A stretch of 64,000 nt of DNA from a virus, in IMG/VR virus record IMGVR_UViG_3300030061_002483, positions 1 through 64,000 of that record; one strand, 5' to 3'. Positions within the stretch are counted from its first letter, which is position 1; the number at the start of each line of letters is the position of its first letter. Below are positions 9,097-39,142 of this stretch, one piece after another. The notes under the pieces are model-generated. The model had not been told where the DNA came from. It made no database searches and saw only the letters and a program-made list of their open reading frames with translations. Both the position numbers and the translations under genes were made by a program.

Positions 9097-9125
9097 AAAA
9101 TTGTTTAACCTTTTAGACCTATACT

Positions 9126-12026: not shown

Positions 12027-13931
12027 ATGGAAGTATCAAATAAGATTCTGTCGGATATTACTGTCTACATGAAGTACGCAAAATATATACCGGAACTAAA
12101 TAGAAGAGAAACGTGGGAAGAATTAGTTACCCGAAATAAAAAAATGCATCAGAAAAAATACCCTAATTTAAAGGAAGAAATAGAGCAAAAATATAAGTTA
12201 GTGTATGATAAAAAAGTACTGCCATCAATGAGAAGTATGCAATTTGGTGGTAAACCAATTGAGATTAGTCCAAATAGAATCTATAATTGTGCTTACCTAC
12301 CTATTGACCATATAGATTCATTTCCAGAAACTATGTTTCTACTATTGGGAGGAACAGGTGTTGGATACTCAGTTCAAAAGCACCATGTAAAAAAATTACC
12401 AGTAATCCAAAAACCATATCCAAAAAGAAAAAAAAGATTTTTAATTGGTGATAGTATTGAAGGATGGGCAGACGCTATAAAAGTTTTAATGAAAACATAC
12501 ATGAATGGTGGTGGTAGTAGAGTAGAATTTGATTATTCAGATATAAGACCTAAAGGGGCAAGATTAATAACATCAGGTGGTAAAGCACCGGGACCTCAAC
12601 CACTAAAAGAATGTTTAGTTAAAATAGAAGGTCTATTAAATCAAAAAGAAAATGGAGAACAACTTACAACTATTGAAGTACATGATATTATATGTCATAT
12701 CGCAGACGCGGTACTTGCCGGTGGTATTCGTAGAGCAGCTCTTATTAGTTTATTTAGTGCTGATGACGACGCTATGATTTCTTGTAAAGCAGGAAATTGG
12801 TGGGAATTAAATCCACAAAGAGGTAGAGCAAATAATTCAGCTTGTTTAATGAGACATAAAATTACTAAAGAATTTTTTATGGACTTATGGAAACGTGTTG
12901 AATTATCAGGAGCAGGAGAACCAGGAATTTATCTAAATAACGATAAAGATTGGGGTACAAATCCTTGTTGTGAAATCGCATTAAGACCAAACCAATTCTG
13001 TAATCTTTGTGAGGTAAATGTTTCAAATATAGAATCACAAGAAGATTTAAATGAAAGAGTAAAAGCAGCAGCCTTCATTGGAACACTTCAAGCAGGTTAT
13101 ACAGCTTTCCACTATCTAAGAGAAATATGGCAAGAAACAACTGAAAAAGATGCTCTCATTGGTGTATCAATGACAGGTATTGGTTCAGGAAAAGTATTAA
13201 AATATGACATGAAAAAAGCTGCTAGTTTAGTTAAACGAGAAAATACCAGAGTATCTAAACTAATAGATGTTAACCCATCAGCAAGATGTACAACTGTTAA
13301 ACCAGCTGGTACCACATCATTAACATTAGGAACATCATCAGGTATTCATGCGTGGCATAATGATTATTATATTAGAAGAGTTAGGGTAGGTAAAAATGAA
13401 GCAATTTATACTTACTTAAATATTAATCATCCAGAGTTAGTAGAAGATGAATATTTTAGACCACATGACACAGCTGTAATTAGTATACCACAAAAGGCAC
13501 CTGTAGGGTCTATATTACGAACTGAATCTCCATTTGATTTACTAGAAAGAGTAAAAAAGGTAGCTACAGAATGGGTAAGGTCCGGACATAGAAATGGGTC
13601 TAATTCTCACAATGTATCCGCAACAATTTCATTAAAAGAAAACGAATGGGATAAAGCTGGGGAATGGATGTGGGATAATAGAAAAGCTTATAATGGGTTA
13701 TCGGTTCTACCATATAATGGAGGTACTTACACACAAGCACCATTTGAAGATATCACTGAAGAACAATATCACGAGATGATGAAATCTCTTAAAGAAGTTG
13801 ATTTAAGTAAAGTTGTTGAATTAGACGACAATACCAACCTAACTGGTGAACTTGCATGTGCTGGCGGTAGTTGTGAAGTGGATATCGATGTAAAAACTAT
13901 GAAAAAAGAAAAAGAATTGAATGAGGCATAA
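12027..13931 (+). CDS. nrdJ: Class II (B12-dependent) ribonucleoside-triphosphate reductase
   Basis: 634 residues, resembling monomeric RTPR of the Lactobacillus type (about 739 residues) and shorter than it. Cysteines fall where RTPR chemistry needs them: C88 in RIYNCAYLPI and C325 in FCNLCEVN as the substrate-reducing pair, C314 in NPCCEI as the thiyl-radical residue, and C611/C616 in a C-x4-C tail that would relay electrons. The GTTSLTLGTSSGIHAW loop is the conserved phosphate-binding region. The enzyme makes deoxynucleotides with adenosylcobalamin and needs no oxygen or small subunit; accordingly no nrdB is seen. Oddity: the Gly normally after the radical Cys (NPCGEI) is a second Cys (C315). 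A glutaredoxin-like protein at 59.3 kb could reduce the tail. Confidence 0.88.
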   Translation: MEVSNKILSDITVYMKYAKYIPELNRRETWEELVTRNKKMHQKKYPNLKEEIEQKYKLVYDKKVLPSMRSMQFGGKPIEISPNRIYNCAYLPIDHIDSFPETMFLLLGGTGVGYSVQKHHVKKLPVIQKPYPKRKKRFLIGDSIEGWADAIKVLMKTYMNGGGSRVEFDYSDIRPKGARLITSGGKAPGPQPLKECLVKIEGLLNQKENGEQLTTIEVHDIICHIADAVLAGGIRRAALISLFSADDDAMISCKAGNWWELNPQRGRANNSACLMRHKITKEFFMDLWKRVELSGAGEPGIYLNNDKDWGTNPCCEIALRPNQFCNLCEVNVSNIESQEDLNERVKAAAFIGTLQAGYTAFHYLREIWQETTEKDALIGVSMTGIGSGKVLKYDMKKAASLVKRENTRVSKLIDVNPSARCTTVKPAGTTSLTLGTSSGIHAWHNDYYIRRVRVGKNEAIYTYLNINHPELVEDEYFRPHDTAVISIPQKAPVGSILRTESPFDLLERVKKVATEWVRSGHRNGSNSHNVSATISLKENEWDKAGEWMWDNRKAYNGLSVLPYNGGTYTQAPFEDITEEQYHEMMKSLKEVDLSKVVELDDNTNLTGELACAGGSCEVDIDVKTMKKEKELNEA

Positions 13932-14366: not shown

Positions 14367-14816
14367 ATGCCCAATCAAAAATATGGTATAAAATTTCCTT
14401 TTACTCAAAGTAGTGAAGGCTTCTTTCTAGGGTTAAATTCTAATCCTGATGCTGAAGTTAGGTCAAATTTAATGCATTTAATATTAACCCAAAAAGGTTC
14501 TAGATATTTTTTACCAGATTTTGGCACTAATTTGATGAGGTTTTTATTCGAACCACTAGACTCAGGAACAATATCCTCGATAGATAAAGAAATAAGAAAA
14601 TCCGTAGCAAAATATATACCTAATCTGGTAATTAACAATATAGAAATCAAAAATATGGATGAGGTTAGAGAAGAGGATACACTTCTAATTGGAGAAGATA
14701 ATAGTTTTAGTTTTGCTGGTGAAAAAGAACAAGAATATACAGTAAGAATAAGAATAGATTATAGTATAGGTAGTTCGGTTTTCGAAACTAAAGATTTTGT
14801 TATAATAAATTTATAA
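14367..14816 (+). CDS. 25: Baseplate wedge protein, gp25-like
   Basis: 149 residues with the gp25 core: LMHLILTQKGSRYFLPDFGT, then NLMRFLFEPLDSGTISSI and a C-terminal beta segment (YTVRIRIDYSIGSSVFE). gp25 is the small conserved wedge protein that joins the baseplate to the first sheath ring; it is found in contractile tails and in type VI secretion (TssE). It is followed after one base by the gp6-like gene, the same order as in many contractile-tail systems. It marks the start of the long tail block. Confidence 0.88.
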   Translation: MPNQKYGIKFPFTQSSEGFFLGLNSNPDAEVRSNLMHLILTQKGSRYFLPDFGTNLMRFLFEPLDSGTISSIDKEIRKSVAKYIPNLVINNIEIKNMDEVREEDTLLIGEDNSFSFAGEKEQEYTVRIRIDYSIGSSVFETKDFVIINL

Positions 14817-14817
14817 T

Positions 14818-16659
14818 ATGGCAGATAAAAAAGTAGCATATACGGAAAGAGATTTTTTAGGTATAAGAAATGAATTATTAAGAATAACCAATACCTATTA
14901 CCCCGATTTAATACAAAATGCTAATGATTCGTCTATATACTCTATTTTTTTAGATTTAAACGCTGCCGTAGCAGACAATCTAAATTTCCAAATAGATAGG
15001 ACATTTCAAGAAACAGTACTACAATTTGCTCAAGAAAGAAGTTCTCTATATAACTTAGCAAAAACATATGGATTAAAAGTGCCAGGTAATAGACCATCAA
15101 TAACCGTAGTTGATATTTCTGTTGTAGTACCGGTCCTAGGAGATAAAGAAGATTTTAAATATTTGGGGTTATTAAGGAAAGGTTCACAATTTAAAGGTGG
15201 TGGTAACATATTTGAATTAGTTAATGATTGTGATTTTTCATCTATCTATAGTATTGATGGTGTAAGAAATAGATTTAAAACACCAAACTATGACTCAAAC
15301 GGAATTTTAAATAATTACACCATCACAAAAAGAGAAGTGGTTGTTAATGGAGTTACTAAAGTATTTAAAAAAGAAATTACAGATGTAGATAGTAAACCAT
15401 TTTATAAATTGTTTTTACCAGATAAAAATGTTATAGGGGTTACATCTGTTATACAAAAAGATGGCGTAGGGTATCAGTCTCTACCACCAAACAGTGAGTT
15501 CATGTCTAACTCTAGTAATAAGTGGTATGAAGTAGATGCTTTAGCTTTAGAGGATGTTTTCATAGAAGACCCATCATCTCCACCAGATAAAAGCGGTATA
15601 AAAGTAGGTAAGTATATACAAGCACCTCAAAGATTTGTCACTGAGTTTACCCCAGAAGGATTTTTCTTTTTAACATTTGGTGCTGGAAATCAAACGTCTC
15701 AAGACCTTTTAGATTCATTTACAAGTTTAGGTGTTAAGTTAGATATGTCTAATTTTATGAATAATACATCATTAGGTAATATGGTGAAAGGAAACAGTAC
15801 AATATTTGTACAATATAGAGTTGGTGGGGGTAGAGCTTCTAATGTTGGTGCGGGGGCGATTAATGGTATAGGTACTATAGATTTTGTTGTTGCTGGACCT
15901 AGTCAACAAATAAATCAAACAGTGGTTAACAGTTTAGCGGTAAGAAATGTTTCAGCAGCTATTGGTGGTGCCGACCCAATGAGTACAGAAGAAATTAGAA
16001 ATTATATTTCTTTTAATTTTGCTGCACAACAAAGAGCTGTTACAATTAACGATTATGTAAATAAACTTAGAACTATGCCCGCTACTTTTGGTGCAGCGGC
16101 AAAAGTAGGTGTCACAGAAATTGAAAATAAAGTTGAGGTTAATGTGTTGTCCTATACACCAGATGGTAAATTAACTTCTAGTGTTAGTAATACATTAAAA
16201 AATAATATAGCTAATTATCTTTCTAATTATAGGATGTTAAATGATTATATTATGGTAGGGGCAGCAAAAGTAATAGACTTGGGTTTTGATATCGATTTAA
16301 TTTTAGAACAATCCGTAAATCAGGGTTCTATTATAACTGAAGTCATAAATAAAGTAACGGATTATTTTGATACTAATAAGATAGAAATGGGACAAGACCT
16401 ATCTTTAGGTGATTTAAGGGGTCAAATAATGAATCAACCAGGAGTTGTAAATATAGTAGACCTTAGAGTACATAATAAAGTAGGTGGACAATATTCCCAA
16501 TCGGTAACAAATCAACCATTCACTAATGACTTAACCAACCAAATTGGTTTAATTAATGATACAGTTTACGCTCAACCAAATGAGATTTTACAGATAAGAT
16601 TTCCACAAAAAGACATCTCAATACGAGTCCAAAGGCCTGTTAAACCAGTATTCGCGTAA
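14818..16659 (+). CDS. 6: Baseplate wedge protein, gp6-like (J-type)
   Basis: 613 residues, close to T4 gp6 (660). The N-terminus (YTERDFLGIRNELLRITNTY, then DLNAAVADNLNFQID) and the later GGADPMSTEEIRNYI and INDYVNKL motifs are typical of baseplate J/gp6 proteins, which form the ring that locks the wedges together. The beta-rich middle (about residues 100-260) matches the domain inserted in the family. It follows gp25 by one base. Two promoter-like elements and an inverted repeat follow its stop codon. Confidence 0.88.
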   Translation: MADKKVAYTERDFLGIRNELLRITNTYYPDLIQNANDSSIYSIFLDLNAAVADNLNFQIDRTFQETVLQFAQERSSLYNLAKTYGLKVPGNRPSITVVDISVVVPVLGDKEDFKYLGLLRKGSQFKGGGNIFELVNDCDFSSIYSIDGVRNRFKTPNYDSNGILNNYTITKREVVVNGVTKVFKKEITDVDSKPFYKLFLPDKNVIGVTSVIQKDGVGYQSLPPNSEFMSNSSNKWYEVDALALEDVFIEDPSSPPDKSGIKVGKYIQAPQRFVTEFTPEGFFFLTFGAGNQTSQDLLDSFTSLGVKLDMSNFMNNTSLGNMVKGNSTIFVQYRVGGGRASNVGAGAINGIGTIDFVVAGPSQQINQTVVNSLAVRNVSAAIGGADPMSTEEIRNYISFNFAAQQRAVTINDYVNKLRTMPATFGAAAKVGVTEIENKVEVNVLSYTPDGKLTSSVSNTLKNNIANYLSNYRMLNDYIMVGAAKVIDLGFDIDLILEQSVNQGSIITEVINKVTDYFDTNKIEMGQDLSLGDLRGQIMNQPGVVNIVDLRVHNKVGGQYSQSVTNQPFTNDLTNQIGLINDTVYAQPNEILQIRFPQKDISIRVQRPVKPVFA

Positions 16660-16728: not shown

Positions 16729-19700
16729 ATGCCAAAATCATTTAGAGTAAGGACAGAAATAGGTAAAGAAAAAAACTTAACATTTGAATTAAAACAAGAT
16801 TTTGATTTATTAGAAATATTAAGTTTGTCTTTAACACAACAAGATGTGTATAGTAGGATGTGCTCAGATTTTGGAGTTGTGGTCGGTAGAGTTATATCTA
16901 ATGGTGGTTTCGGTATACCAAACGCTAAAGTTTCTATATTCGTACCTTTGGACTCTGAAGATGAAACCAACCCAATCATAAAACAACTTTATCCTTATAC
17001 TCAACCATATGACAAAGATGAACAAGGTAAAAGATATAATTTATTAAGTTCGGAAGAAAATTTTGACTGTCACGTTCCAGTAGGAACTTTTCCAAAACTT
17101 AGAAATGTTTTGAGTAATCAAGATGTTAGGTATGTCTATGACAAATATTATAAATTTACGGTAAAAACTAATGAGTCTGGTGATTTTATGATATATGGTG
17201 TTCCTACCGGAGACCAAAATATTGTGATGGATGTTGACCTAAGTGACATAGGTTGTTTTTCTTTACTACCTGAAGACTTTAAACAGATGGGTTACTCATC
17301 AACAGACTTTGATGGCCCCAAGTTTAAAAGTGATTCTAGTATAGACAGTCTTCCCCAAATATTAAATCAAACAAAATCAATAGATGTCAGACCTTTTTGG
17401 GGCGATGAAGAATTATGTAATGCATCAATAACTAGAGTAGATTTTGATTTACAAGATAGTGGATTTAAATTAAAACCTATGTCTATTTTTATGGGTAGTA
17501 CAGCTACCGATACTGATAAAGACGCAGTTAACTTCTCTTGTAGACCCAGAAGAGCACAAGGAAATCTATGTAGTTTAGTTTCTCAACCAGGTCTGATAGA
17601 CGCAATCAGATATACACCATTTTTTAAGCAAGATTCTAACGCTTATACCTCAACCACATCACCAGGACTTGCTGCTGGAGGTACAGTACCGATATTAGAA
17701 AGATACTATTTAGAGGATGGTGGTAGAGTTATTGATAGTACAGGAGCTTTCTTAGTCCATTTACCGATGAATTTAGACCATGTAATTACTGACGAATTCG
17801 GTAATTTGGTTAAGTCACAAGACCCTGAAAAAGGTGTGCCTACGAGAGGTAGATATAGATTTAGAATTAGACCGGAACAGTCAGCAGGAACAGCAAGAAA
17901 TAGAAGAAGAGGGAGTTACCTAGTCCCAAACATTAGAGAGTATAATGATGATGTTGGGGATAGTTCAGATGGTAACTGGACAAGCATAGACCCAAAATCC
18001 TACGCCTTTTCCATAGAATATAGTGATTATCACCCACACGCACAAACTAATTTACTGCCTGGAGCATTAGATTATTTTTATGACATGACTTTTAATAGGG
18101 TTTATACGGTGTCACAATTTCATGACCATGTTAAACATAATGGTAGGAGACAATTTCTAGGTGTTAAAGAAATATTGCCAGAAGAAGAACAACAATGTTC
18201 TACAACAGCAGTTCACTTTCCAGTTAACAGTGCTGTTAGAAGGGCAAAATTTATTATCTATTTAAATAATTTATTAATAGATTTAATGGGTATTATTTTT
18301 ATGGCTGTGTCATTAATAGTAGGTATTCTATCTTTTATATTTGGAATAATACTATTACCCATACTTTTATTTTTATATGCTTTATGTGCCATTTTAATAT
18401 TAATTAATGATGTTATTAGTAGTTTACCTTGGGTAAGTGGACCTTTGGATGGTTTAATAGCAGGATTAGGTTGTGATTGTATTTGTGTTAGTGGTAGTGG
18501 CTGCTTTGCTTGCGGGCCAGGAAATGTTAACTGTGCTTATTTTGGTTTCCCACTAGGGTTTGTATTATTTACTCTTAGACAAACCAAATATCCCGAATGT
18601 GAAAAATGTACATGTCGTAATACCGCAAATAGTGAAATGCAAGCATTAGCAAATAACTTCCCATGTCCAGGTGCTCCCCCAACTTATGACTCATCAGATT
18701 GTGAAGGTGGATTCTTTAGTAGTTTAGCTCAATGGGGTGGTAATGATTGTTGTGGAGCACAGGACGAGGCAAGAGTATGTTGTCCAGATTGGTATGGTTT
18801 TGACTCTACAACTACTGTAGGTGGATTGGGTGATGTTGATGGACCAGCAGGTGGGGGATGTTATGTTAAAGTAATGTGCTTTAACCCAGCATGTATCCTC
18901 GCAAATCTAAGTATGACAACATTCTTCCAATGGGCAAGAAGACAAAAAATAGCAAGTGCTTTATGTAATGGTGTGATGAATTATTTCTGGGAAAACGCAT
19001 GGGTAAGTGGATTTTTATATCAATTCCAATTTAAAATGAAATTAAAATATAGTGTCGCAGATGATAGTTATAATGCAGATTCTAAATGGTGTAAAAAACT
19101 AGTTTACATACACCCATCAGAACATGTTGTATATTATAGGTCTACACCTTTTAAATGGGACTCAGCGACCAATACAGGATACTTTTTAGGTGATGAAGAT
19201 GGTGTGAGAGGTGGTAACTCTAGTTCAGATAAACATTCTGATGGTGACATGAGAAGACACATCCTTTTTCCGACCACAATAGTAGATATGGGTTCTAGAA
19301 ATCAATGTATACAACAAATATGTTTAGACCCAAACTTTGCTGAAGAATGTTCAGTTACCGACCAGATAGGACATACCAGTTTCCAAGACTTTACAGAACT
19401 AGTTTCAGACATATATAATTTAAAAGCTAATTATTCATTAGCTGCCTTAGGTAGTTTCTTTACAAGACCAGAAAACGAAATAGGTGGAGATGTCGCACAA
19501 GCTATTATGCAAAACTGTATGGTGGGTGTTGTTGGTTATGAAAGTAATATGAGTACTACCGGTTGTGTATGTCTTGATGATAATGGAAATTCCGGTATAA
19601 ATACAGGTACTACACTTGGTGAGTTAATGGAATACCCATACCCTGGTGATGGTAATAGTCCATTTAATGACCCCTATGTACAACATGGTGTTTATGGTGA

Positions 19701-20220
19701 TGGTGCTAGAAGATGGATTCAATGGGAACCTATGTTATTTACAGCAGCTACACAAACTATTATGTCCGGTGTTGATTTAATAGAATGTTTAACAGAAGAT
19801 TTAAGAGCCTCTTCACAACCAGTACCTTATTATATATGGAATTTAGACGGTGCACCTGGAACACCATTCGGTAGTGATTATAATGATTGGTCAGGAACTT
19901 ACGGAGACTATAGAAGAAAAACAGCTATTCCTATGAGTCCACTTGGGGCTATAAATTTAGGACCAGTATCTACGAATATATGGCCAGAACCTAACCCCCT
20001 AACTAGCGATTACTTCCAAGGTTCAAATGCAGGAACTATGGGTGTTAACAATAGTTTATTACAACCAGCTAATTACCCACCACTAACACCAACTAGTGCA
20101 CCAACAATAAACATGACACAACCATTATTTTATTATTTTGGTTTAAGACCTGGACAAACATCTTACAATACGTTTTTAAGGTTATATGTCGATGAAGAAT
20201 TAGCAGACGCGGTATTATAA
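16729..20220 (+). CDS. Large baseplate/tail protein with membrane-like segments and a Cys-rich domain
   Basis: 1163 residues; position after gp6 suggests a wedge or baseplate component (a gp7-like place), but I cannot assign a family. Residues about 40-190 contain a carboxypeptidase-regulatory-like beta domain (GRVISNGGFGIPNAKVSIFV; ESGDFMIYGVPTGDQNI). Residues 508-565 are an uninterrupted hydrophobic run (LMGIIFMAVSLIVGILSFIF and on to LPILLFLYALCAILILI) long enough for two or three membrane passes. It is followed by a Cys-rich region (about 575-720: CDCICVSGSGCFACG, CEKCTCRN, CCPDW). The remainder is structural with WxxP-rich loops. Hydrophobic segments of this length are very unusual in a baseplate protein. 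The gene overlaps the next by one base (TAATG). Confidence 0.75.
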   Translation: MPKSFRVRTEIGKEKNLTFELKQDFDLLEILSLSLTQQDVYSRMCSDFGVVVGRVISNGGFGIPNAKVSIFVPLDSEDETNPIIKQLYPYTQPYDKDEQGKRYNLLSSEENFDCHVPVGTFPKLRNVLSNQDVRYVYDKYYKFTVKTNESGDFMIYGVPTGDQNIVMDVDLSDIGCFSLLPEDFKQMGYSSTDFDGPKFKSDSSIDSLPQILNQTKSIDVRPFWGDEELCNASITRVDFDLQDSGFKLKPMSIFMGSTATDTDKDAVNFSCRPRRAQGNLCSLVSQPGLIDAIRYTPFFKQDSNAYTSTTSPGLAAGGTVPILERYYLEDGGRVIDSTGAFLVHLPMNLDHVITDEFGNLVKSQDPEKGVPTRGRYRFRIRPEQSAGTARNRRRGSYLVPNIREYNDDVGDSSDGNWTSIDPKSYAFSIEYSDYHPHAQTNLLPGALDYFYDMTFNRVYTVSQFHDHVKHNGRRQFLGVKEILPEEEQQCSTTAVHFPVNSAVRRAKFIIYLNNLLIDLMGIIFMAVSLIVGILSFIFGIILLPILLFLYALCAILILINDVISSLPWVSGPLDGLIAGLGCDCICVSGSGCFACGPGNVNCAYFGFPLGFVLFTLRQTKYPECEKCTCRNTANSEMQALANNFPCPGAPPTYDSSDCEGGFFSSLAQWGGNDCCGAQDEARVCCPDWYGFDSTTTVGGLGDVDGPAGGGCYVKVMCFNPACILANLSMTTFFQWARRQKIASALCNGVMNYFWENAWVSGFLYQFQFKMKLKYSVADDSYNADSKWCKKLVYIHPSEHVVYYRSTPFKWDSATNTGYFLGDEDGVRGGNSSSDKHSDGDMRRHILFPTTIVDMGSRNQCIQQICLDPNFAEECSVTDQIGHTSFQDFTELVSDIYNLKANYSLAALGSFFTRPENEIGGDVAQAIMQNCMVGVVGYESNMSTTGCVCLDDNGNSGINTGTTLGELMEYPYPGDGNSPFNDPYVQHGVYGDGARRWIQWEPMLFTAATQTIMSGVDLIECLTEDLRASSQPVPYYIWNLDGAPGTPFGSDYNDWSGTYGDYRRKTAIPMSPLGAINLGPVSTNIWPEPNPLTSDYFQGSNAGTMGVNNSLLQPANYPPLTPTSAPTINMTQPLFYYFGLRPGQTSYNTFLRLYVDEELADAVL

Positions 20221-22055
20221 TGAGTACAGATAAAAACATAAGAGCTCTTAGAGGTTCCGCGAGATTTGCGGGGTCAACAGATAAAGATGTTGGGTTACAA
20301 GCTTTTTTGGAGTCAGACAAAAGAAATTTAATAGAAGGGGATAGAAATTTAGTTTTAAATCTACAAGACCAGTTTAATTTTGAAAGACAGTATTCTACAA
20401 CATATAGATTATACGGTAAAATAGATATGTTGTATCATAATGTAATTAGTGGTGAAACGACTAATGCAAACACCATAAAGAATATGTATTTTATACCGGA
20501 TTTTAGGGGTTGTCCAGATTGTCTATTATATCCTGGACCATTTTGTGGGCCACCATGTAGTGGGTTACCACCAGCAGTTACTTTTGACATGATACCTAAT
20601 AGAAGGTATGGTCCGGGTGGTGGAGCTGGCATAGGACCATTTAATTTCGCTACTGCGTACCAAGATAATTGGGTACTATATACCTCTTATATTTATTCCC
20701 ATCAATCCGGACAAACAATGCAATTTCACATAGATTATACTGGTGGAACATCTGGTTTAGATTTTGTTGCAGGAGATGGAATCCCATTTACATTAGAAAC
20801 AGTAGTGATTGATGGTAAAGACACTTTAAGGTTTAGAACTAGAGCACGTCACGGTATACAACCAGGTGAATATATAGAGATACAGTCCACAGCAACAAGT
20901 TTCGGTGGAGCCAATTTAATTACCACCATCCCGTTAACCTATTCTTTAAATCTAGTGCCAACAACAAGATTTGAGACAATTTTTAAAATAGATTCCTTTG
21001 GTGATGGTACAACAAATTCAGAAGACTATGTTTTAAATGTGAATGTTAAAGGTATAGATAGCGGAAGTATACCTTCAAAATGTGTAGGTACCTTTAAAAG
21101 AATTATAAATATAGATAACATAGCCGAAACAAAATCACAATATTACGTACATCAACACAAATTAATAAGTAGGTCTAATGACTATACTTTAGATAGAACG
21201 GGATTCGAATTTGGTATTTACAATAGAAAGGGTAGAAATTTTAGTGATAAAAAAACACCTGACAGTATAGCAAAAACTGTTATTAAAGAAGAGTTTAAAT
21301 CTTATGTGTATTGTTTTACACGAGATTTTGACGCGGAAAAATATTTTGATAATTGGAATAGACCTGTATCAGAATTTTATCTTACCATGCTACCAACTAA
21401 TAGAAATGCTATGTGGGACTATGAAGGTGATTCTGGGTTCGCCGCGGATTCTCCAGCTACCTATGGATGGAATTGGAATTTCCAACCTAACGGATTCCTA
21501 GACCCTTTTATCGATATAGATACTTTACCACACAACAAAGTAAATTTATTTCAAAGTACCCCCACAAATGGGGTAGACCCACTACCAACGAGTGGAGCTA
21601 CATTTAGAGGTGCATTTGTAGAATGGAACCCTTATGAAATAAAAGAAAGAATAATTTCAGAGATAGGACATGCCTTAAAACTTAATCCAACGGTATTAGT
21701 GGAAGGGGTTACCACCCAGGTCCCACCTGAAAAACATTCAATATACAAATATAAACCACATCACAGAATACTAATAAGGCCCTTCTCTAACACTATAAAT
21801 TATAGTGATAGTTTAGAAAATTCACCACAATATGCTAGATATTTAGTTAGTGAAGAAACTTTTAGATGGAGAAATCAATTACCGGTTGAAATGTATGAGG
21901 ATAATGGTTACGGTGTAAGTTATCCTTATTTAAATGACGCACATTACCCACATCTTAGTGTTGAGTTTAAACACATACCAGTAGGACCGATTTTAAATAA
22001 AATAGAACCAATGTCAGCAATGACAATGTTAAATGAAATGATAGATGTCTGTTAA
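20220..22055 (+). CDS. Predicted baseplate/tail structural protein, 611 aa
   Basis: Unrecognised. It starts with the TAATG overlap of the upstream gene, so the two are coupled. The N-terminus is polar; a Cys/Pro/Gly cluster (FRGCPDCLLYPGPFCGPPCS, about residues 93-112) resembles the Cys-rich segments of neighbouring virion proteins; the remainder is beta-rich with aromatic residues. There is no signal peptide. The run of same-strand, end-to-end genes after gp25/gp6 makes a virion role likely, but the exact component is unknown. Confidence 0.7.
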   Translation: MSTDKNIRALRGSARFAGSTDKDVGLQAFLESDKRNLIEGDRNLVLNLQDQFNFERQYSTTYRLYGKIDMLYHNVISGETTNANTIKNMYFIPDFRGCPDCLLYPGPFCGPPCSGLPPAVTFDMIPNRRYGPGGGAGIGPFNFATAYQDNWVLYTSYIYSHQSGQTMQFHIDYTGGTSGLDFVAGDGIPFTLETVVIDGKDTLRFRTRARHGIQPGEYIEIQSTATSFGGANLITTIPLTYSLNLVPTTRFETIFKIDSFGDGTTNSEDYVLNVNVKGIDSGSIPSKCVGTFKRIINIDNIAETKSQYYVHQHKLISRSNDYTLDRTGFEFGIYNRKGRNFSDKKTPDSIAKTVIKEEFKSYVYCFTRDFDAEKYFDNWNRPVSEFYLTMLPTNRNAMWDYEGDSGFAADSPATYGWNWNFQPNGFLDPFIDIDTLPHNKVNLFQSTPTNGVDPLPTSGATFRGAFVEWNPYEIKERIISEIGHALKLNPTVLVEGVTTQVPPEKHSIYKYKPHHRILIRPFSNTINYSDSLENSPQYARYLVSEETFRWRNQLPVEMYEDNGYGVSYPYLNDAHYPHLSVEFKHIPVGPILNKIEPMSAMTMLNEMIDVC

Positions 22056-22929
22056 TAGAATACAAATAAAAGCTTCACTAGGGGAAAAACAAATTACTAT
22101 CCCAATAGGACAAACCTTTGATGAGGTAGGTCGTGAACAATTAATACGTGATTATGAAGTAGTAGAACAACAAGATAATGTAAATATTATACAAGATTAT
22201 GAAACTACTAGATATTCTTTTAGTGGTGGTTCATTTATTCATTATGAATTTAAGTTTTATTCTGGTGGAACTTATTTTGATAAATTTAAACCACTAGGGT
22301 ATAAAGACTACGAATTAGCTAAAAATAAAAAATCTTTTGTTAATAGTTTTTTTAAGTTTGATTATTGGGACTCACCATTAAGAAAAGAACAAAAATTAAT
22401 GTTTTCTATAGTTATTCCAGCTAACAATTGTGATAAAGATTACCCAGCAATGGTTAATATTGATGAAGACCCCTTAGAATACTTCTCACAACTAGCTTCT
22501 GGTGATTTAGCTCCTGGACAATTACCAGAATATGATATATACCACCCGTACATTACGGTAGGTCCCACTCAAGTTAGAAATGAGGGTTACTATATACAAT
22601 GGTTAAAGGAAAGAAATTTGTTAGAAATAGATACATTTTATATGTCGTGTAATTTTTTTAATGCGGGTACAGGACAATCAACACGAATGATAAATAAAAA
22701 TCCTTTAATTCCCTCAGGTAGTTGGGACCCAACAACCGACTTAGGAACTTATGATTATCCAGAATGGTTCTACTACCAAGTTAAATTAACCATAAGAGAA
22801 GGTACAGAAACACCAAAGTATTACTATAATGTATATAACTATAGTAATATGAATTTACAATACGGTATACAGGGTAGCTCAATAGGTACCCTAACCCCGA
22901 TAATTTTTTATGAATACATTGAACCATAA
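22045..22929 (+). CDS. Predicted baseplate/tail structural protein, 294 aa
   Basis: Unrecognised 294-residue protein, overlapping its upstream neighbour by 11 bases and the giant downstream gene by one base. Visible features are a beta-rich body with many Tyr and Asp residues (HYEFKFYSGGTYFDKFKPLG; YYNVYNYSNMNLQYGIQG) and few cysteines. The composition resembles tail-fibre or adaptor proteins. It may be an adaptor for the Cys-rich giant that follows. Confidence 0.7.
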   Translation: MSVNRIQIKASLGEKQITIPIGQTFDEVGREQLIRDYEVVEQQDNVNIIQDYETTRYSFSGGSFIHYEFKFYSGGTYFDKFKPLGYKDYELAKNKKSFVNSFFKFDYWDSPLRKEQKLMFSIVIPANNCDKDYPAMVNIDEDPLEYFSQLASGDLAPGQLPEYDIYHPYITVGPTQVRNEGYYIQWLKERNLLEIDTFYMSCNFFNAGTGQSTRMINKNPLIPSGSWDPTTDLGTYDYPEWFYYQVKLTIREGTETPKYYYNVYNYSNMNLQYGIQGSSIGTLTPIIFYEYIEP

Positions 22930-25900
22930 TGGAAGTAAATAAATATGTAATAAGAAGGTCCAACCCAGACGTGAGTTGGTCGATACCATGTTCAGGAGCT
23001 ACTAATATGTGGCCTATTAATTATAGTACTAATTGTTCCGGTTCTACAATGTATAGTTCTACAGCTTCACAAGTACTTAATGCGTTGAATGGAAATATGA
23101 ATAATTTCCCAATGGAGTTAAGTGATTGTAGCCCTACAAACCCTTGTGTAATATTATGGGACGTGAACCCACAACCTATTGGTACTGTAGGTAGATGTCA
23201 AGTCAATGACTTTGCATACATAGAATATAAAGGTTTTTGGTTAACTACACCAGGGCCAGTAACACAACAAGTAAGTTATTCAGAACTTATAGGGTATTAT
23301 GAAAGTAATAATTTTGATTTATCAACAAGTTTACAATCACAATCATCTTCTTACGCACAAATGAATAGAGCATGGTGTCTATGTGACAATCCACTAGGTG
23401 AATTCCTATATGATATTACATTTTCTTTACACCAAGATTTCAATGATATCGGTCATTATTCCCTATGGGATGGAAATATTGACCAAAAAGAAATATTCCA
23501 AAACTTTGTTGTTAGTGCAACTACAAATCCGGGGGGTATATACGACGGGTATTATATACAAGTTTGGAATACCACAGATTTTGGATTCTACAAAACATTC
23601 CAAGACTCAGCTTATGTTATAGATTGGGGTGACGGTACACAATCTACATTACAGTACCCTACTCTTATAGGAAACCATCAATACGCAGCAACAGCAGTAC
23701 CAACATATAAACAAATAAAAATAACATATAACGCTCCTTGGGGACCAGTTAGTACTACCAAAACTATAGTAGTACCTAATTTAGATTTATTGGGGATAGT
23801 ATCCCAACCCCCAGGACCATCACCTTTATTGGGTGGTATGCCACCTCAACAAGTAAATTTAACAGGACCTACTAATACAGGCGGTCTACCTGTAGGTTCA
23901 TCAACCGCGGGACATGCTGTATATGGTAATCCAGGTACGATGAGTTACATGCCTTTAGATTCAGCAGTAGACATTAATGAATTTAGTGGGTTATCACCAA
24001 TGCCATGTTTTACAGTGACTGGTATTACTGAAAGTATACTAGGTAGTTTCCAAACCTATTCAAATACCACTAATGCACCTGGATTATTAGAACCAGGTAT
24101 GAACATTAGTAATACACCAGGACAATATGTAGTACCTATAGGTGGTGATGTTATCGACCCCGTAAGTAATGAACCCACACCAGGGTTAATGGGAGAAATA
24201 ACAGCTGCGAACGGAGGTTATACAGCATACACAGTTTATGCACCTACTGTAGCTGGTAATATAACCCCTATAGAATACTACGATTTTGTTAACGGTATAA
24301 CAATTTTTGTGGCGGAAAGTTGTGGGTTACCAGGTAATACTTTTCTAGATAGTGCCGACTGTTTTCAATGTGAAATAGATGATTGTACTTATTGTGAAAC
24401 CAAAGACGAATACTTTAATAGGGAGAGTGGTGTATTGGGTGGACCAACAGCAATTTCTGTAGGGACTAATTACGCAAATTTAGTTCCACCACAACAATGG
24501 AACTCTTTTACAAATTATAATATTGGTGATATAGTTTTTGACCGAACTTATAATTTATGTTGTTGTTATATGGTAGTAAAAGATATTATACAATCTGGTG
24601 CTACTCCATCAGATTGGGCGGGTGTACCCCCAGCTATAACTGATGATGGTATGTGGTATCCAGGATTAGATATTAATGGTAATACTTTACCTGGTCATCA
24701 TATTTATGAACCATGTTGTAGACAACCAGATTGTGATTGTGGAACATGTCCACCAGGAACAGCAACACCATGTAATGACCCAACTAATCCTTGGAATTCT
24801 TATCCGTTAACATTACCTGTTGGACCAGCAGGACCGTGGGTAAATGGAAATGTTTATAATGTGGGGGAATTTACCGAAGGTCCAAATGGTGGTTGTTATA
24901 GAGCTTTATCTACGGGTGCTCACCCATCACCAGTTACTGGTGCAGGAGCATCCACCTATTGGGATTATGTAACCTGTGCAAGTTGGGCATGTCCGATAGA
25001 CCCAACCGCTACTGGATGTCAGATGTATACGGGGTTAACCCAAGGAATACCAGGAGCTTTTCCATTTTATAGTGATTGTGATACATTTTTTGCGGCAGGA
25101 GAATGTTTTGATACACAGTGGATTTGTGAAGACCAATATAATTGTAGTGGTTGTATAGAGATTAATTCTTCTCATAGTGGTTATACATTACCTATCGCAC
25201 CACCAGTATTTTCAGCACAGGCAGAGTGTGAAGCTTGGTGTGACCCACCACTATATTCTTGTGCAACCCCAACAACTAGTCCATGTTGTCTGTTTATGAG
25301 TTGTGATATACTACCAAACCTATATACCGCAGCTATGAATGATTATTTCACTGCTTTTGGAGGTGGAGCACCAATAACAATACCTAATCTAAATTCTTTA
25401 GATTTATATTTAGATTCTTCCATTTGTGAAAGTGCATGTTGTGAAACACTAGGATACCAATGGACTTGTACCTATGGATGCCAAGAATTTCCTGGTTTAA
25501 CACAAAGTTTAGCTGATTGTGTTGCTACATCCCCAGCTGGTACTTTTGGTTTATCAGCAGAGTGTGGGTATGATTGTGTAAATCCTTGTGTACCATATGT
25601 TCCGGGTGTTTCTAGTCCTTGTATGTCATGTACTGATTTAGGTATATTTAACACCCCTGGTTGTGCACCATTCCAAACTGACGCTCAATGTGCTCAAAGT
25701 TGTACGGCTGATACATCTTGTTACAGATGTGATTGTTATGATACACAACCATGTACTTTAGAATATCCATGTACAACACCTTCTGCCACGGTACCTGGTT
25801 GTACAGGACCTAATCCAGCACTTGGAACTTATGCAACTGCATCCGCATGTACAGCATCTTGTATTTGTGACGCAGGTTGGGATTGTTACATTATAAATAA

Positions 25901-28900
25901 CCCATATGACCCAAATTACGGTCAACCAGACGGTCAAGGATGTCGATATGTACAAGATTTAAACTTATTAGGTACCGGATTTACATTTTCATCTAATGGA
26001 CCATTTTCAGCATTAACAGATTGTTGTTTAGATACTGGTTGTTGTACTGTAAATTGTGATGAAATTGATGCACTATATTATGACCCTGCTATAAATGGCT
26101 ACACCCCAGCCAATTATATTGGGCCACCAAATCCTCCACCACCATTTGGTACTGGTACTTATCCGTGTTATTATGAAACCGTTTCAAACACTAGTATAGG
26201 TTGTTATTCAGGCCAATCTGGTGGACCATATAATGCTGGATTTAGTTTACCATTTTGTACTATGGCAGACTGTTTAAATTGGATAACTGCTGATGCTCCA
26301 TGTCCTCCAGCTGAAGACCCATTGGGTAACCCAACAGGTTTTACATGTTGTGAAGAAGAAATAGAAATTACTTGTGATTGTGCGTGTAGTGGTACTACAG
26401 CGGCACTAATGATATCCCCACTCCCTTTAAATCATACTGGTGCTTTTGTTGCGAGTGGAACGGAGGGGTATACTATAGGGGATACCGTTACGTATGTAGA
26501 TATAGATAGTCCGGTGTGTTGTTATGTTTGTAATTGTCCGGATAATGGTGGTGTTTTAGATTGTAATTCCTACACTCCAGATATGCCTTTACCTCCAGGA
26601 CAAATAAATTGTTGGGAATCTTGTGGGTCTACCGAAGGAAGTGCACCGTCAGGGTGTACACCTTGTTTAGGTTATTCCGCAACACAGGATACATATCTAT
26701 GTACAACTAATAATGGTTGTGTTGCTTCTGACGATATAATATTAAATCCAGGAGGTATGGGGGTACCATGTGTTATAAACCCACTGTTCACTCAAACACA
26801 ACAAAATTGTTACACATCTTCTACCTGTGATTACGAATGTCAAGCAGGTTGTTATTGTGATGACCAAGGAACCCCTAACCCATTAGATGATATAACTGGT
26901 TGTGTTATGTTACAAGATGTCTTGAACGGTTTAACCCCTTTCGCTTCAACCAATTACTTTGCATTATCTTTAGATAGTTGTAACACAGCAATAACTTTAG
27001 GTATGGATTGTTGTACGGGTGAAACTTTTTACTGTGACTATATAGATAATGGGTCAGTTATTAATTGTGATTCTACAGGTACATTAGGTACAGGATGTCA
27101 ATCTATATATGATGGACAACCAGGATATCCAGGACCTTACACATCTTTAACCGACTGTCAACAAGCCTGTACTTGGGAATGTGATAGTAACGGGTGGCAA
27201 CAATGTCAGTTCGTTTTAAATTCAACAGCACCAGTTACCTTCCCTAGTGCGAATGCTTGTTACGTGGCTAATACACAACCAACTAATTGTTATTGTCAAC
27301 CATCAGCAACCACATCTTGGTATTGTGATAATTCAGGTCAATCCGGTCTATTACCTGGCACAAGTAATTGTGTAACCAGTACCGTAGTTGCTGGGTATAC
27401 TACCGCTCAACAACAACAAGTTTACGGTCAAGGACAAATAACTTATTTTGCTGGTGGAACAGGGTTCTTAAACCAAACATTTTGTGAAGAATTTTGTAGA
27501 TATAAATGTTATGATACAAATGTAGGGTTAACCCCACCTAATACTCCTTGTGAATGTAGTTTAGATTGGGGTAATAACGGTGGAACAACAACTTCATTTT
27601 ATGATTGTACCGGGTCTACTTTTTCTAATCTAGGATATTATCCTTGTTGTCCGACAGGAACTACTATATTTTGTTGTGACCCAATATTAGGTTGTCTAGG
27701 ACCTTATACTCCTGGTAATCAACCAGCGGGTTGTCTAGGTACTTTTTCAAGTGATGCACAATGTAATACTGAATGTAATTTTGCTTGTGGAGATTGTTTT
27801 GGTACAGATAATTGTTTCTGTGAATTTTATTTTGGCCCACTAGTATGTACCGGTGAAACCATATATAATACTATGGCTGATTGTCAAGCTAATTATACTC
27901 TAGGACAATTTAGTTCTACCGGATGTTGTGATTGTTATGATTGTGCTATTAATGGGGGTATAACTTGGACATATACACCATCAGATAATGCTACTACATG
28001 GATGTCTAATAGTACGTCAGTACCATCACCTCAAAACGGTATTTTAGGTGACCCATGGTCTTCCGGCCAAGTGGGCGTACCTAATGGTGGGTATTTTGCT
28101 GGAGATACGGTTTTATACACTAATAGTGATGGTGTTACTTGTTGTTATGTTTTTGTTAATAAATGGAATACTTCATGGATTGATTTTACCATAGACCCAC
28201 ACACTTATTACACTTCTTACGTTAATGCAGTTGCTAATAATGACTTTTATTTAGCATATTACTCACAAGTATGGATTGCGTGTGACCCTAGTTGTGCACC
28301 ACCTAGTATAATCACTTGGGATTGTTTCCCAGGTACAGCAACTGATACTTGTCTAAATCTAACTAATTTCTTCCAAAATAGTGTAGGGAACCCAGTCCCT
28401 TATTTTGGTGACGCATTAGATGCTGTTCTAACAGGTTGGGGTAACCCCAACGTAACCAACTCAGGTTTTCAAGCAGCAGTATTCCAAATGGGTCAATATG
28501 TAACGGAACTAATGGCTCCATTTGCACCACAAACACCAGGACACTGTCAAGGTCCTAATGGAGGTTACTTACATAAAGTTACAGGTATAAATGTATCCGG
28601 TGTAGCTACAAACCCATCAGCTCCAGCGTATTTACCTACAGTCGCTGCGGGAACACCATTTAGTTCTTGGAAAGGATTGATAGACGCTTTAAATGCAGAC
28701 AACTGGATGTTAGGTAACGGTACATCACCAATTTGGAATGTTACAGACCCTCTGGTAGTATACAATGATTTTTGTATCTATAATGAAGGTGATTGTTTTG
28801 GTGCCAAATCAATAGCGTGTATTTGTGGTGGTAAACCATGTGACTGTCAACCAGTATATGGTCCAGGTGGTCAGTACGCAACATCAGCTTCGTGTTATAG

Positions 28901-30293
28901 TGCATGTTGTGAAACATCCTATAGATGTCATGGTACACTATGTCAATGTATAGATTGTGGTGGACCACAATGGCAAACCGGTTGTGCATATGCAAATTTA
29001 GGGCAGTGTCAAAATGACCCACTTACTTGTTGTAGTAGTGCTACTACTGAATGGAGTTGTTATAATAATGGAGTTACGTGTGAATGTATACAGGCTCCAG
29101 GACCATATTCGTCTTTAACTCACTGTCAAACAGCTAACAATTGTTGTAAACCACCAGACCCAACTGACTGTACCGATTGTCACGCTTTTTCAGCTTTAAA
29201 TGATTGTGGACAATACTTTGTACTAAAAGACATAAACCAATGGATGTTAACTGCATACGGTGGGTTGTATTCAGCATTAACAACACCTCTAGGTGTAAAT
29301 CTTCACTGTGACCCTAATTATTATTTATATGACCCAGCCACTCAATGTTGTTGGATATGTGTGATGGACAAAGACGGTACTCTAGCTGGAAATAGAAACT
29401 TCCTAGGAGAAGACCCAAACCAAAGTGCGTGTTGTACAATATGGAAGGGTCAGTTATGGGGTAGTAGTCTCGCGATGGGTAATGGTTGTTGGTGCCAAGC
29501 GGACCAAAAATTTTACGATTCGGGGTGGATACCTTGTGGTGGGTCAGGACAGAATTGTTTACCACCAAACTACGAAGAAACTTGGGATTGTGATATGCAA
29601 ACACAAACGTGTTATGACCCCTTAAATGGTTCAGGTCAATACCATGCTGGAAACGGAGGATACTTGGCTTGTGTTCAAAACTGTATATCTCATGGTAACT
29701 GTAAAGATTGTGAAAATGCATTATCACCATTTTTAGACGCACCAGGAACAATTACTATGATGGGACCATGGGACCCAGCACAATCTTATAGTCATAATGA
29801 TTGTGTTACTATACAACACCATTTTGGGCCGATGCCATTACATGATGACCCAGAATGTTGTTATTGTTGTGTTAGAAAATCAGGAGGACCAGACCCTCAA
29901 GACGACGATGATGTTTTACATGGGTTGACACATAATTTAGATAACTATTATCGTCTTTTAACTCAACAAAGTAACAAATCATTAAAAAGTGTGGATGCCT
30001 CTTTTGACGATGTTGTGTTATCGGACCCAGACGACCCTTTTAATTGTCCTATAGGGTTTGACCCAAGTCAAGGAGGTAGTATGAATGGTTCACAATGGTT
30101 ACCTTGTGGGATACAACCAAATGGTGACCCATGTGTGAAAAAGTGTAAAAAATGTTGCTGTAAAGGTAATCAACAAATACAATTAGCATCAACTACTAAT
30201 CCTTGTGTATGTCCACAAGGTTGGAATGACTGTAGCTGTAACATTATTATTGGACCTGGTGGCCCTGTAGGAATTGAACCAAGTGATGGATAA
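22929..30293 (+). CDS. Giant Cys-rich repeat protein, probable virion adhesin (2454 aa)
   Basis: By hand count about 200 cysteines in 2454 residues (about 8%). A PKD-like strand pair (YVIDWGDGTQST) lies near residue 230. From about residue 480 on, many imperfect units follow C-x-C-x(5-9)-G-x-Tyr-x-[ST]-x3-C-x3-C, for example CECIQAPGPYSSLTHCQTA. Interspersed are five stretches resembling family 5/12 carbohydrate-binding modules (Tyr-x-x-Gly-Asp-x-Val then a paired Cys-Tyr), near residues 519, 634, 1176, 1718 and 2283. The pattern suggests a chain of small disulfide-bonded domains, likely an extended fibre that binds surface glycans. No signal peptide is visible, so disulfides would have to form after lysis or under virion protection. 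Function is inferred from composition and location in the tail block. Confidence 0.75.
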   Translation: MEVNKYVIRRSNPDVSWSIPCSGATNMWPINYSTNCSGSTMYSSTASQVLNALNGNMNNFPMELSDCSPTNPCVILWDVNPQPIGTVGRCQVNDFAYIEYKGFWLTTPGPVTQQVSYSELIGYYESNNFDLSTSLQSQSSSYAQMNRAWCLCDNPLGEFLYDITFSLHQDFNDIGHYSLWDGNIDQKEIFQNFVVSATTNPGGIYDGYYIQVWNTTDFGFYKTFQDSAYVIDWGDGTQSTLQYPTLIGNHQYAATAVPTYKQIKITYNAPWGPVSTTKTIVVPNLDLLGIVSQPPGPSPLLGGMPPQQVNLTGPTNTGGLPVGSSTAGHAVYGNPGTMSYMPLDSAVDINEFSGLSPMPCFTVTGITESILGSFQTYSNTTNAPGLLEPGMNISNTPGQYVVPIGGDVIDPVSNEPTPGLMGEITAANGGYTAYTVYAPTVAGNITPIEYYDFVNGITIFVAESCGLPGNTFLDSADCFQCEIDDCTYCETKDEYFNRESGVLGGPTAISVGTNYANLVPPQQWNSFTNYNIGDIVFDRTYNLCCCYMVVKDIIQSGATPSDWAGVPPAITDDGMWYPGLDINGNTLPGHHIYEPCCRQPDCDCGTCPPGTATPCNDPTNPWNSYPLTLPVGPAGPWVNGNVYNVGEFTEGPNGGCYRALSTGAHPSPVTGAGASTYWDYVTCASWACPIDPTATGCQMYTGLTQGIPGAFPFYSDCDTFFAAGECFDTQWICEDQYNCSGCIEINSSHSGYTLPIAPPVFSAQAECEAWCDPPLYSCATPTTSPCCLFMSCDILPNLYTAAMNDYFTAFGGGAPITIPNLNSLDLYLDSSICESACCETLGYQWTCTYGCQEFPGLTQSLADCVATSPAGTFGLSAECGYDCVNPCVPYVPGVSSPCMSCTDLGIFNTPGCAPFQTDAQCAQSCTADTSCYRCDCYDTQPCTLEYPCTTPSATVPGCTGPNPALGTYATASACTASCICDAGWDCYIINNPYDPNYGQPDGQGCRYVQDLNLLGTGFTFSSNGPFSALTDCCLDTGCCTVNCDEIDALYYDPAINGYTPANYIGPPNPPPPFGTGTYPCYYETVSNTSIGCYSGQSGGPYNAGFSLPFCTMADCLNWITADAPCPPAEDPLGNPTGFTCCEEEIEITCDCACSGTTAALMISPLPLNHTGAFVASGTEGYTIGDTVTYVDIDSPVCCYVCNCPDNGGVLDCNSYTPDMPLPPGQINCWESCGSTEGSAPSGCTPCLGYSATQDTYLCTTNNGCVASDDIILNPGGMGVPCVINPLFTQTQQNCYTSSTCDYECQAGCYCDDQGTPNPLDDITGCVMLQDVLNGLTPFASTNYFALSLDSCNTAITLGMDCCTGETFYCDYIDNGSVINCDSTGTLGTGCQSIYDGQPGYPGPYTSLTDCQQACTWECDSNGWQQCQFVLNSTAPVTFPSANACYVANTQPTNCYCQPSATTSWYCDNSGQSGLLPGTSNCVTSTVVAGYTTAQQQQVYGQGQITYFAGGTGFLNQTFCEEFCRYKCYDTNVGLTPPNTPCECSLDWGNNGGTTTSFYDCTGSTFSNLGYYPCCPTGTTIFCCDPILGCLGPYTPGNQPAGCLGTFSSDAQCNTECNFACGDCFGTDNCFCEFYFGPLVCTGETIYNTMADCQANYTLGQFSSTGCCDCYDCAINGGITWTYTPSDNATTWMSNSTSVPSPQNGILGDPWSSGQVGVPNGGYFAGDTVLYTNSDGVTCCYVFVNKWNTSWIDFTIDPHTYYTSYVNAVANNDFYLAYYSQVWIACDPSCAPPSIITWDCFPGTATDTCLNLTNFFQNSVGNPVPYFGDALDAVLTGWGNPNVTNSGFQAAVFQMGQYVTELMAPFAPQTPGHCQGPNGGYLHKVTGINVSGVATNPSAPAYLPTVAAGTPFSSWKGLIDALNADNWMLGNGTSPIWNVTDPLVVYNDFCIYNEGDCFGAKSIACICGGKPCDCQPVYGPGGQYATSASCYSACCETSYRCHGTLCQCIDCGGPQWQTGCAYANLGQCQNDPLTCCSSATTEWSCYNNGVTCECIQAPGPYSSLTHCQTANNCCKPPDPTDCTDCHAFSALNDCGQYFVLKDINQWMLTAYGGLYSALTTPLGVNLHCDPNYYLYDPATQCCWICVMDKDGTLAGNRNFLGEDPNQSACCTIWKGQLWGSSLAMGNGCWCQADQKFYDSGWIPCGGSGQNCLPPNYEETWDCDMQTQTCYDPLNGSGQYHAGNGGYLACVQNCISHGNCKDCENALSPFLDAPGTITMMGPWDPAQSYSHNDCVTIQHHFGPMPLHDDPECCYCCVRKSGGPDPQDDDDVLHGLTHNLDNYYRLLTQQSNKSLKSVDASFDDVVLSDPDDPFNCPIGFDPSQGGSMNGSQWLPCGIQPNGDPCVKKCKKCCCKGNQQIQLASTTNPCVCPQGWNDCSCNIIIGPGGPVGIEPSDG

Positions 30294-37900: not shown

Positions 37901-39142
37901 CTACCAACTTATAATGATTCTATAACCCCTACATGTAATTTTAATTTCCCACAAATATCACAATCATATATTATAGTTAATACTTTTAAGAATTATTTTG
38001 GTAATTTATTGAAGCATTTTATAGTAGTTACACCTGGTTGTGAATTTCATAAACCATGTTCTGGTTCTAAAGTTATTTCAGCTTACGATATAATTCACAA
38101 TACCAGACCTGAAGATTGGAGAGTACAAAATGTAGACAAAAAATTAATGATTAACGGTAGAGAAATTACGGTGGTAAGTAGTAAATCACACTACAATCCA
38201 GCCCCACTAACTTTACCTAAACAACGTACATGTAAATATTACTGTAGTTGTGGACAATCAGTCGCAGAACAATTAGGTATAAATCCAATATATGGGATAA
38301 GTAACATATTTACTGATTTAGAGGCTGAAAATTGTAATGACTGTTTAAAAGAAGCCAATATTTACTGTAAAAACTTAAATTCTGTATGTGAACCAGTTTT
38401 AGTTGGTGGATGTAGTCCAACCAATGCATTATTAAGTCAGTTAAATGAAATTAATTCAGACCAAGAAATAAAAGTTAATTATAGTAAAGGTCGTATAAGA
38501 ACTAATAAACCAAGTGTGGTGGTTGAGGGTGAAGGTAGAGGAAGAGGAAGAGTAAGATGTATAGAAGAAGGTGGTGATTTAGCAGGTTGTTGTCCGTGTT
38601 ACGCACAAGACACTTTTTCTTTCGGTAGTCCAAGAGGTGGTACAGACCTATCTGATTCATTAGATAGTGGAAGTCCTAGTAATATTATTGGTTGGGCTAT
38701 AGAATGTTGTAGGGGTTATTATGATGATGACCCATCTAGGGGGTCAGATTTTGGGAGTGGTAAACCAAATGATGACGGTGACGATAGAGGTCGTGGAGTT
38801 GATAGTGACGACGGTACTACAGAAATAAAGTATTATAGTTGTAATGGGGGCGTGTGTATAGTAGACTCCAATGGTATATACTCTAGTTTAGAATCTTGTC
38901 AAAGAGCTTGTACAAAAGTAAAACCACCATCCGATGTTGATGAAGTGATTGATGAAGTTGTAGATAAGGATGTTGATGAAGTTATAGAAGAGCAATCAGA
39001 AGCGGTATACGATGAGTATAAAGAAATTTCTTCAATAGAAGAACTAGATTCAGATAAAGGTTTATGTCCAGATGCATATGAGTGGTGTGATGCGTTAGGG
39101 ACATGTATACCAAATAATGAACCGTGTGGTAAATATAAGTAA
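34976..39142 (+). CDS. Large tail protein with tetra-Cys motif and C-terminal Cys-rich repeats, 1388 aa
   Basis: 1388 residues. The first 100 residues form a beta domain. A four-cysteine cluster C473, C476, C484, C497 (NCKNCIFANDGYCNKWS ... YWCQSW) could hold zinc or an iron-sulfur centre. The C-terminal 250 residues are Cys- and Asp-rich: CCPCYAQ, then YSCNGGVCIVDSNGIYSS with the following CQRAC, which is the same disulfide-type unit as in the 2454-residue protein. After an acidic, Val-rich spacer (DEVIDEVVDKDVDEVIEE) a second small Cys unit (CPDAYEWCDALGTCIPNNEP) closes the protein. It is likely a tail fibre or adhesin; no family is recognised overall. Confidence 0.72.
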   Translation: MADKIYRSKIDLRVLTDTLEFVFYVSGDYPGSGKQTAKVNKKKWATFKYNTQYPVEAIYRITDTNERLFLRFESKRLNVVRDLEILPPSHTDIILEVFKTNKGVFGFETVKGSGWGAFLSHPNYYNTQISPTEDIGEGALKYFKTTDRTNRVGKVHALQMVLNDMNYPSNGFENLSFDMDILSENCGQYAKSLGFKINLENTSLLEGDVIDIIPVQQVTSRPTDISLTTTYLTLTQKDLVSREVIYDYKKQLTPQGAVPEVIELTNSQVYTVENPLNLTTNLSELNLPTKNIVEIPYNISREVEDGKIKASKEIIKDGKKFFPLNWANELRDNDIFSSSRKCLDLSFANKEQQISFIDKLKQQQIGSIETFPFVSDSGELHHSNRNYVKLSQWINRSKLDTFNDIDFSYTTDGLIDSVTICPKKRCMVNKAGGRENTLKSNEAPRPTQYPNGSIIPNNLPQSYGKPQVKGQNCKNCIFANDGYCNKWSAVVRNNYWCQSWGGGGTNSGNYAPISANSNSDFCFTTYSESGSTTVYSSFTTNARSKYKSNRTYDLHISGETFSGNTIIPISDIESQKNVKLMGDDTELYRAYAFSNVYSKNGGYLRINNNDSSDYMTYTVSATGIYRLTYKAYLDIEYKDTKWCDYLERSYPTSFVGNYPATDYQIKRLINKSIIQEGKGERERVMQDTGFKFNPGYRYKSDVPSREDKIDIPNNTGIEKFTFEASISKKAATGGTPTNLASFSVLRCSLDGSANRYLTLEVNENDKTISGSNVCISANTSASTIFTKRLPVIVDTGFINLSSGETVTLKYDSQWITSSKGGYYGQTGTANLILRLGHKKDDEGNIIEKPYYRVIKSSDTQVGKKLFFDTSKKSKPFKMVIGNYSREISLDGSLYISDTSCGNISTPIINSTTFPQQKFLDTTAPENKLVWDVTSNKKPVNQWQSLVEGNQVKDYTVSKNKGSMVEMGKDGLFYFYLPTYNDSITPTCNFNFPQISQSYIIVNTFKNYFGNLLKHFIVVTPGCEFHKPCSGSKVISAYDIIHNTRPEDWRVQNVDKKLMINGREITVVSSKSHYNPAPLTLPKQRTCKYYCSCGQSVAEQLGINPIYGISNIFTDLEAENCNDCLKEANIYCKNLNSVCEPVLVGGCSPTNALLSQLNEINSDQEIKVNYSKGRIRTNKPSVVVEGEGRGRGRVRCIEEGGDLAGCCPCYAQDTFSFGSPRGGTDLSDSLDSGSPSNIIGWAIECCRGYYDDDPSRGSDFGSGKPNDDGDDRGRGVDSDDGTTEIKYYSCNGGVCIVDSNGIYSSLESCQRACTKVKPPSDVDEVIDEVVDKDVDEVIEEQSEAVYDEYKEISSIEELDSDKGLCPDAYEWCDALGTCIPNNEPCGKYK

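Follow-up and report, generated by a model that had tools for sequence, protein, structure and literature searches.

The window, a 64,000-nucleotide stretch of the viral record IMGVR_UViG_3300030061_002483 (positions 1 to 64,000), encodes at 22929-30293 (+) a giant cysteine-rich protein of 2454 residues. The open reading frame checks out as given in a preliminary description of this DNA, which had put its cysteines at about 200; we count 199, or 8.1% of the chain, and most neighbouring proteins in the window have 0-3%. Since 199 is an odd number, at least one cysteine must be free or engaged in an intermolecular bond. On inspection, the N-terminus (MEVNKYVIRRSNPDVSW) does not have the look of a signal peptide and neither do those of the relatives, in agreement with the earlier reading. 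Close pairs of relatives give dN/dS values of 0.05-0.49, indicating that the protein is under purifying selection.

The gene sits inside the tail and baseplate gene run of a tailed phage, and from this position we infer that its product is located in the virion. A gp25-like baseplate gene (14367-14816, +; family assigned by inspection) adjoins a gp6-like baseplate wedge gene (14818-16659, +; PHROG baseplate wedge, E 5e-20), as in Flavobacterium phage immuto, and the wedge has relatives both in immuto (27% identity) and in Microcystis phage Mel-JY01. Three genes for proteins of 1163, 611 and 294 residues (16729-22929, +) always lie between gp6 and the giant in the gene order of the relatives. 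The first of these, the baseplate-linked 1163-residue protein, contains a long hydrophobic stretch (window ~18250-18440) that is unusual in a virion protein and may enter a membrane.

Scans of viral contigs for relatives of the giant returned 3 and then 16 loci, mostly 34-44% identical with a few near-identical contigs among them, and a wider set was gathered with the 1163-residue upstream neighbour as query (166 loci, 80 kept). The giant’s slot was readable in 51 loci from about 41 distinct contigs, which include close relatives, and it held a cysteine-rich gene in 51 of 51. The order is fixed: gp25-like, gp6-like, 1163-, 611- and 294-residue proteins, then the cysteine-rich gene. All 44 slot genes of at least 1000 residues have a cysteine content of at least 5.9%, and those with less are fragments that run off the end of a contig or locus. 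In a distant clade (L176, L178, L183, L184 and L189) the slot is filled by two shorter cysteine-rich genes of ~1020-1080 residues. The first matches the giant’s N-terminal region and carries the repeat unit described below, while the second has a different cysteine repeat, of the GC-D-x2-A-x-N-Y type, and a shared C-terminal tail, GCLPRLTKEEF...FIERGKVSVFERPQR.

Because few genes have Shine-Dalgarno-like leaders, which by inspection are absent from most, and because the sigma factor is closest to those of Neomarinimicrobiota and Flavobacteriaceae, the host likely belongs to the FCB group. The virus family is widespread though uncultured, and probably marine. The ribonucleotide reductase of the window (12027-13931) is 68% identical to that of Mel-JY01 and 62% identical to those of Vibrio and Oceanospirillum phages, a far closer relationship than that of the baseplate wedge gene. 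The product of window 45281-46057, a 258-residue tail-region protein with 5.4% cysteine, includes a dockerin type I domain that scores above the Pfam cut-off (PF00404, E 1.1e-6), which is unusual among phage structural genes. Genes that look by eye like phage-encoded DnaK, DnaJ and an FKBP-type isomerase (L022 2792-4654 and L028 ~8706-9689, both in the 155-kb relative; window 8662-9096) may be relevant to the folding of large proline- and cysteine-rich proteins. The 155-kb relative also has a long minus-strand cluster (L023-L024, ~27-50 kb) of what appear by eye to be sugar-nucleotide and glycosyltransferase genes, and window 62977-63294 encodes a 105-residue protein with 37% lysine and one N-terminal transmembrane-like stretch.

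The preliminary description had proposed that a unit C-x-C-x(5-9)-G-x-Y-x-[ST]-x3-C-x3-C recurs along most of the giant chain. That exact pattern matches only once, although a broader unit, [YW]-x-C-x(n)-C-x-C-x(n)-G-x-[YF]-x-[ST]-x3-C-x(n)-C-C, of ~37-55 residues, is a genuine repeat, and both strings quoted as examples are present, at residues 1971 and 2051. The looser ending G-x-Y-x-[ST]-x3-C-x3-C occurs 4 times in the giant, against 0.08 in shuffled sequence. An iterated HMM seeded with seven hand-picked copies finds 10 stretches in the chain, about six of them at i-E < 0.05: residues 1003-1042 (25935-26054, +; i-E 4e-4), 1367-1421 (27027-27191, +; 2.5e-7), 1622-1670 (27792-27938, +; 4e-3), 1955-1997 (28791-28919, +; 0.03), 1996-2038 (28914-29042, +; 2e-5), which with eight cysteines has one extra pair, and 2040-2076 (29046-29156, +; 9e-11), the canonical six-cysteine form. 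By the same HMM, relatives carry up to 17-20 copies. Much of the giant chain is cysteine-rich with spacings other than those of the unit, including a second repeat, W-x5-7-Y-x2-GD-x-V ... CC[YF]. The occurrence of one unit in the neighbouring 1388-residue protein, also noted early on, was confirmed; this four-cysteine unit, at residues 1285-1315 (38828-38920, +; i-E 1e-7), is found in the orthologues of L004, L012, L014 and L019 too.

AlphaFold modelled three tandem units as a hairpin-plus-helix unit with moderate confidence (mean pLDDT 67), and the best PDB match of the unit model in a Foldseek search was at E 0.57, with none at E <= 0.001, leaving the disulfide knot first suggested for the repeat unsupported. 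The Kunitz domain has six cysteines, paired 5-55, 14-38 and 30-51. Our unit is like that of BPTI in having a hairpin then a helix and, toward its end, [FY]-x-S-x3-C-x3-C, but it is without the first two Kunitz cysteines, and a relationship was rejected (hhalign probability 0.6%; no PDB match to the unit profile). Sub-threshold Pfam matches to LDLRAD1_C and GST_C_3 were taken as chance.

Neither the protein nor the profiles of its family and of its unit had a significant match in Pfam, PHROGs or PDB sequences, and among cultured phages we found no relative of the giant, its units or its split form. The unit model matched all 9 viral records examined from the giant’s family and nothing in 15 named bacterial genomes or in 395, 199 and 399 sampled genomes (~990 Bacteroidota and Neomarinimicrobiota), and on these grounds a bacterial origin of the unit was rejected. 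Searching genome contigs for the full family likewise gave no match. The N-terminal region does match A0A6J5L9U6, a PKD domain-containing protein of an uncultured Caudovirales phage, in a structure search (E 1e-12, 24% identity). UniProt probably already contains a partial relative in this entry, which in the library has only 364 residues compared to the giant’s 2454.

The cysteine-poor N-terminal part (approximately residues 1-500; 22929-24428, +) is the most conserved of the chain, with 52% mean pairwise identity, and we propose that it is the end attached to the baseplate. Its AF2 model is weak (pLDDT 46), with confidence only at ~residues 40-150, and because the model is poor the fold search is usable for the PKD-like part only. 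There, a PKD/Ig-like domain (~residues 190-285; 23496-23783, +) has the SorCS2 PKD domain as its best Foldseek match in the PDB (E 2e-3); the Pfam PKD match in the L176 relative, at E 1.2e-3, is below cut-off.

The second repeat, present in four copies of varying completeness, has the W-x5-Y-x2-GD-x-V...Y core of CBM5/12 (PF02839) but differs from it in an added C-C pair and in single copies that fall under the Pfam cut-off. The first CBM5/12-like module (W524..GDIV..CCCY; 24498-24638, +) was seen with profile A7 against the PDB and is sub-threshold for Pfam in relatives. The other copies lie at 26448-26573 (+; Y1181..GDTV..CCY), 28062-28208 (+; Y1722..GDTV..CCY) and 29760-29876 (+; W2281..NDCV..CCYCC), and a possible degenerate module (W638..GEF..CY.A; 24840-24968, +) was picked out by eye only. 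The seven best PDB matches of profile A7 are chitin or related deacetylases, aligned over W..Y..GD.V..Y at E 6e-4 to 0.04, and the chitin deacetylases among them bear CBM5/12. In Pfam, CBM_5_12 is the top match, sub-threshold, for three copies out of the four from relatives that were scanned singly; the best score in relatives is 19.6 bits against a cut-off of 26.2 bits, and window segments gave no PF02839 match. The likeness suggests that these modules may bind sugar. The variable C-terminal third (residues 1800-2454; 28326-30293, +) is the least conserved part, at 30% identity. It has 654 residues here and 834-1145 in relatives, while the rest of the chain is constant in length, and module number differs among relatives in this region, which is likely a host-specific tip.

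How the cysteines have evolved gives good support to the view that they would form disulfides rather than metal sites, because they are conserved, are gained and lost in pairs, and are even in number per unit. Two 40%-identical relatives have identical cysteines at 163 of 193 aligned cysteines. Among 19 diverse members cysteine is 91% conserved and is invariant at 105 of 134 positions (residues 80-1795); tryptophan is conserved at 60%, glycine at 44% and other residues at 21-42%. Variable cysteines share their lineage pattern with a near neighbour, with 13 near-identical partners compared to 5.2 +/- 2.6 after shuffling (P ~0.002), and the same test is not significant for Gly, Pro, Trp, Tyr, Asp, Asn, Thr, Ser or Phe. 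The test was run on gap-free columns; counting gaps as losses also flags Gly and Pro. The clearest co-varying pairs, 236/238, 901/912, 931/948, 940/947 and 1203/1228, predict specific bonds, with the caveats that the co-varying sets include some groups of four and some single columns, and that pairs can be mimicked by shifts in the alignment. An even number of cysteines is found in 94 of 105 distinct units (four in 16, six in 74 and eight in 4), and short forms in a 34-unit alignment are without one cysteine of C-x-C and one of C-C together.

The cysteines might instead serve mainly to join neighbouring virion proteins covalently into a network rather than to staple the chain internally, an arrangement with a precedent in phage Milano (PMC10811340, PMC10491603). 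The odd total of cysteines fits such a network, as does enrichment in three other tail-region proteins (1163 residues, 3.0%; 1388 residues, 2.7%; 258 residues, 5.4%). However, local pairing and even numbers per unit imply mostly intra-chain bonds, and cysteine is nearly absent from the gp6-like (0.2%) and gp25-like (0%) proteins; we consider a mainly cross-linking role unlikely.

Some phage tail tips carry metal ions, and a protein without a signal peptide is made in a reducing compartment, both of which would suit a string of units stabilized, in the cytoplasm, by zinc or iron-sulfur clusters bound to their cysteines. Cysteines at metal sites are expected to change in fours and to occur as C-x2-C pairs. 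We hold metal binding to be quite improbable because the giant’s cysteines change in pairs, not fours, and its C-x2-C pairs are only at chance level (18 against 18.2); in addition, histidine is rare and poorly conserved, and the units form a four-, six- and eight-cysteine series. Nor do we expect the giant to be a non-virion factor, released or intracellular, such as an oxidant or metal sink or a secreted binding protein, which its fixed place in the baseplate/tail gene run of ~41 contigs makes very doubtful, as do features typical of tail adhesins, namely its size, its PKD-like and CBM-like modules and the variability of its C-terminus.

We favour a model, which we judge to be reasonably probable, where the giant serves a T4-like phage as an adhesin that is attached to the baseplate, is stapled by disulfides and binds sugars. 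The cysteine-poor N-terminal region with its PKD-like domain would anchor it at the baseplate, and the rest would be a long chain of small units with two or three disulfides each, between which the CBM5/12-like modules would be set. These modules and the variable C-terminus may bind envelope or particle sugars, the C-terminal third, which gains and loses units, being the likely host-specific tip. Having no export signal, the giant would be reduced when made in the cytoplasm and would oxidize during or after lysis in oxygenated water, becoming a compact arm that resists proteases and shear. No phage-encoded thiol oxidase was noticed by eye in the 155-kb relative, and the model raises the question of how a protein with ~100 potential disulfides folds in a reducing cytoplasm without export. 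Of the interpretation offered at the outset, a conserved, modular, disulfide-rich protein among baseplate genes is supported and the knot is not.

In a broader context, it is tempting to speculate that the main attachment arm of a Bacteroidota/Marinimicrobiota phage family, probably marine, is built from an undescribed class of small disulfide-stapled repeat that is put together in reduced form in the cytoplasm and oxidized on release, such that seawater oxygen matures the adhesin; we offer this only tentatively. To our knowledge, no other phage adhesin would be as dense in disulfides as the giant. None of the libraries searched has an entry for the repeat family, which could give a new small disulfide scaffold.

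Among phages with a comparable locus, the T4-like flavophage immuto has a related baseplate wedge (27% identity) and a similar gp25-gp6 order but its tail region, unlike that of the giant’s family, encodes no cysteine-rich giant, and the unit is matched nowhere in its whole record. The preliminary description recognized no parallel among described phages; there is indeed no close relative, yet the Milano group is a precedent for disulfide reinforcement. In Agrobacterium phage Milano, which has a contractile tail, a disulfide network stabilizes the virion (PMC10811340, PMC10491603), and its relatives 7-7-1 and OLIVR4 are disulfide-reinforced myophages too (PMC10811340, PMC10491603; PMC12796354 for 7-7-1). 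With disulfides of this type, virions stand up better to sonication and heat (PMC10811340, PMC10491603, PMC12796354). Milano’s structural proteins contain 2.1-2.4% cysteine, spread over ordinary tail and capsid proteins (PMC10811340, PMC10491603), and many bonds join one subunit to another among its conventional sheath, baseplate and capsid proteins. The two systems are alike in combining a contractile-tailed phage with unusually cysteine-rich structural proteins, but module, scale and architecture differ: here a single giant protein, at 8.1% cysteine, carries its cysteines in small repeated units, where the bonds are probably mostly intra-chain.
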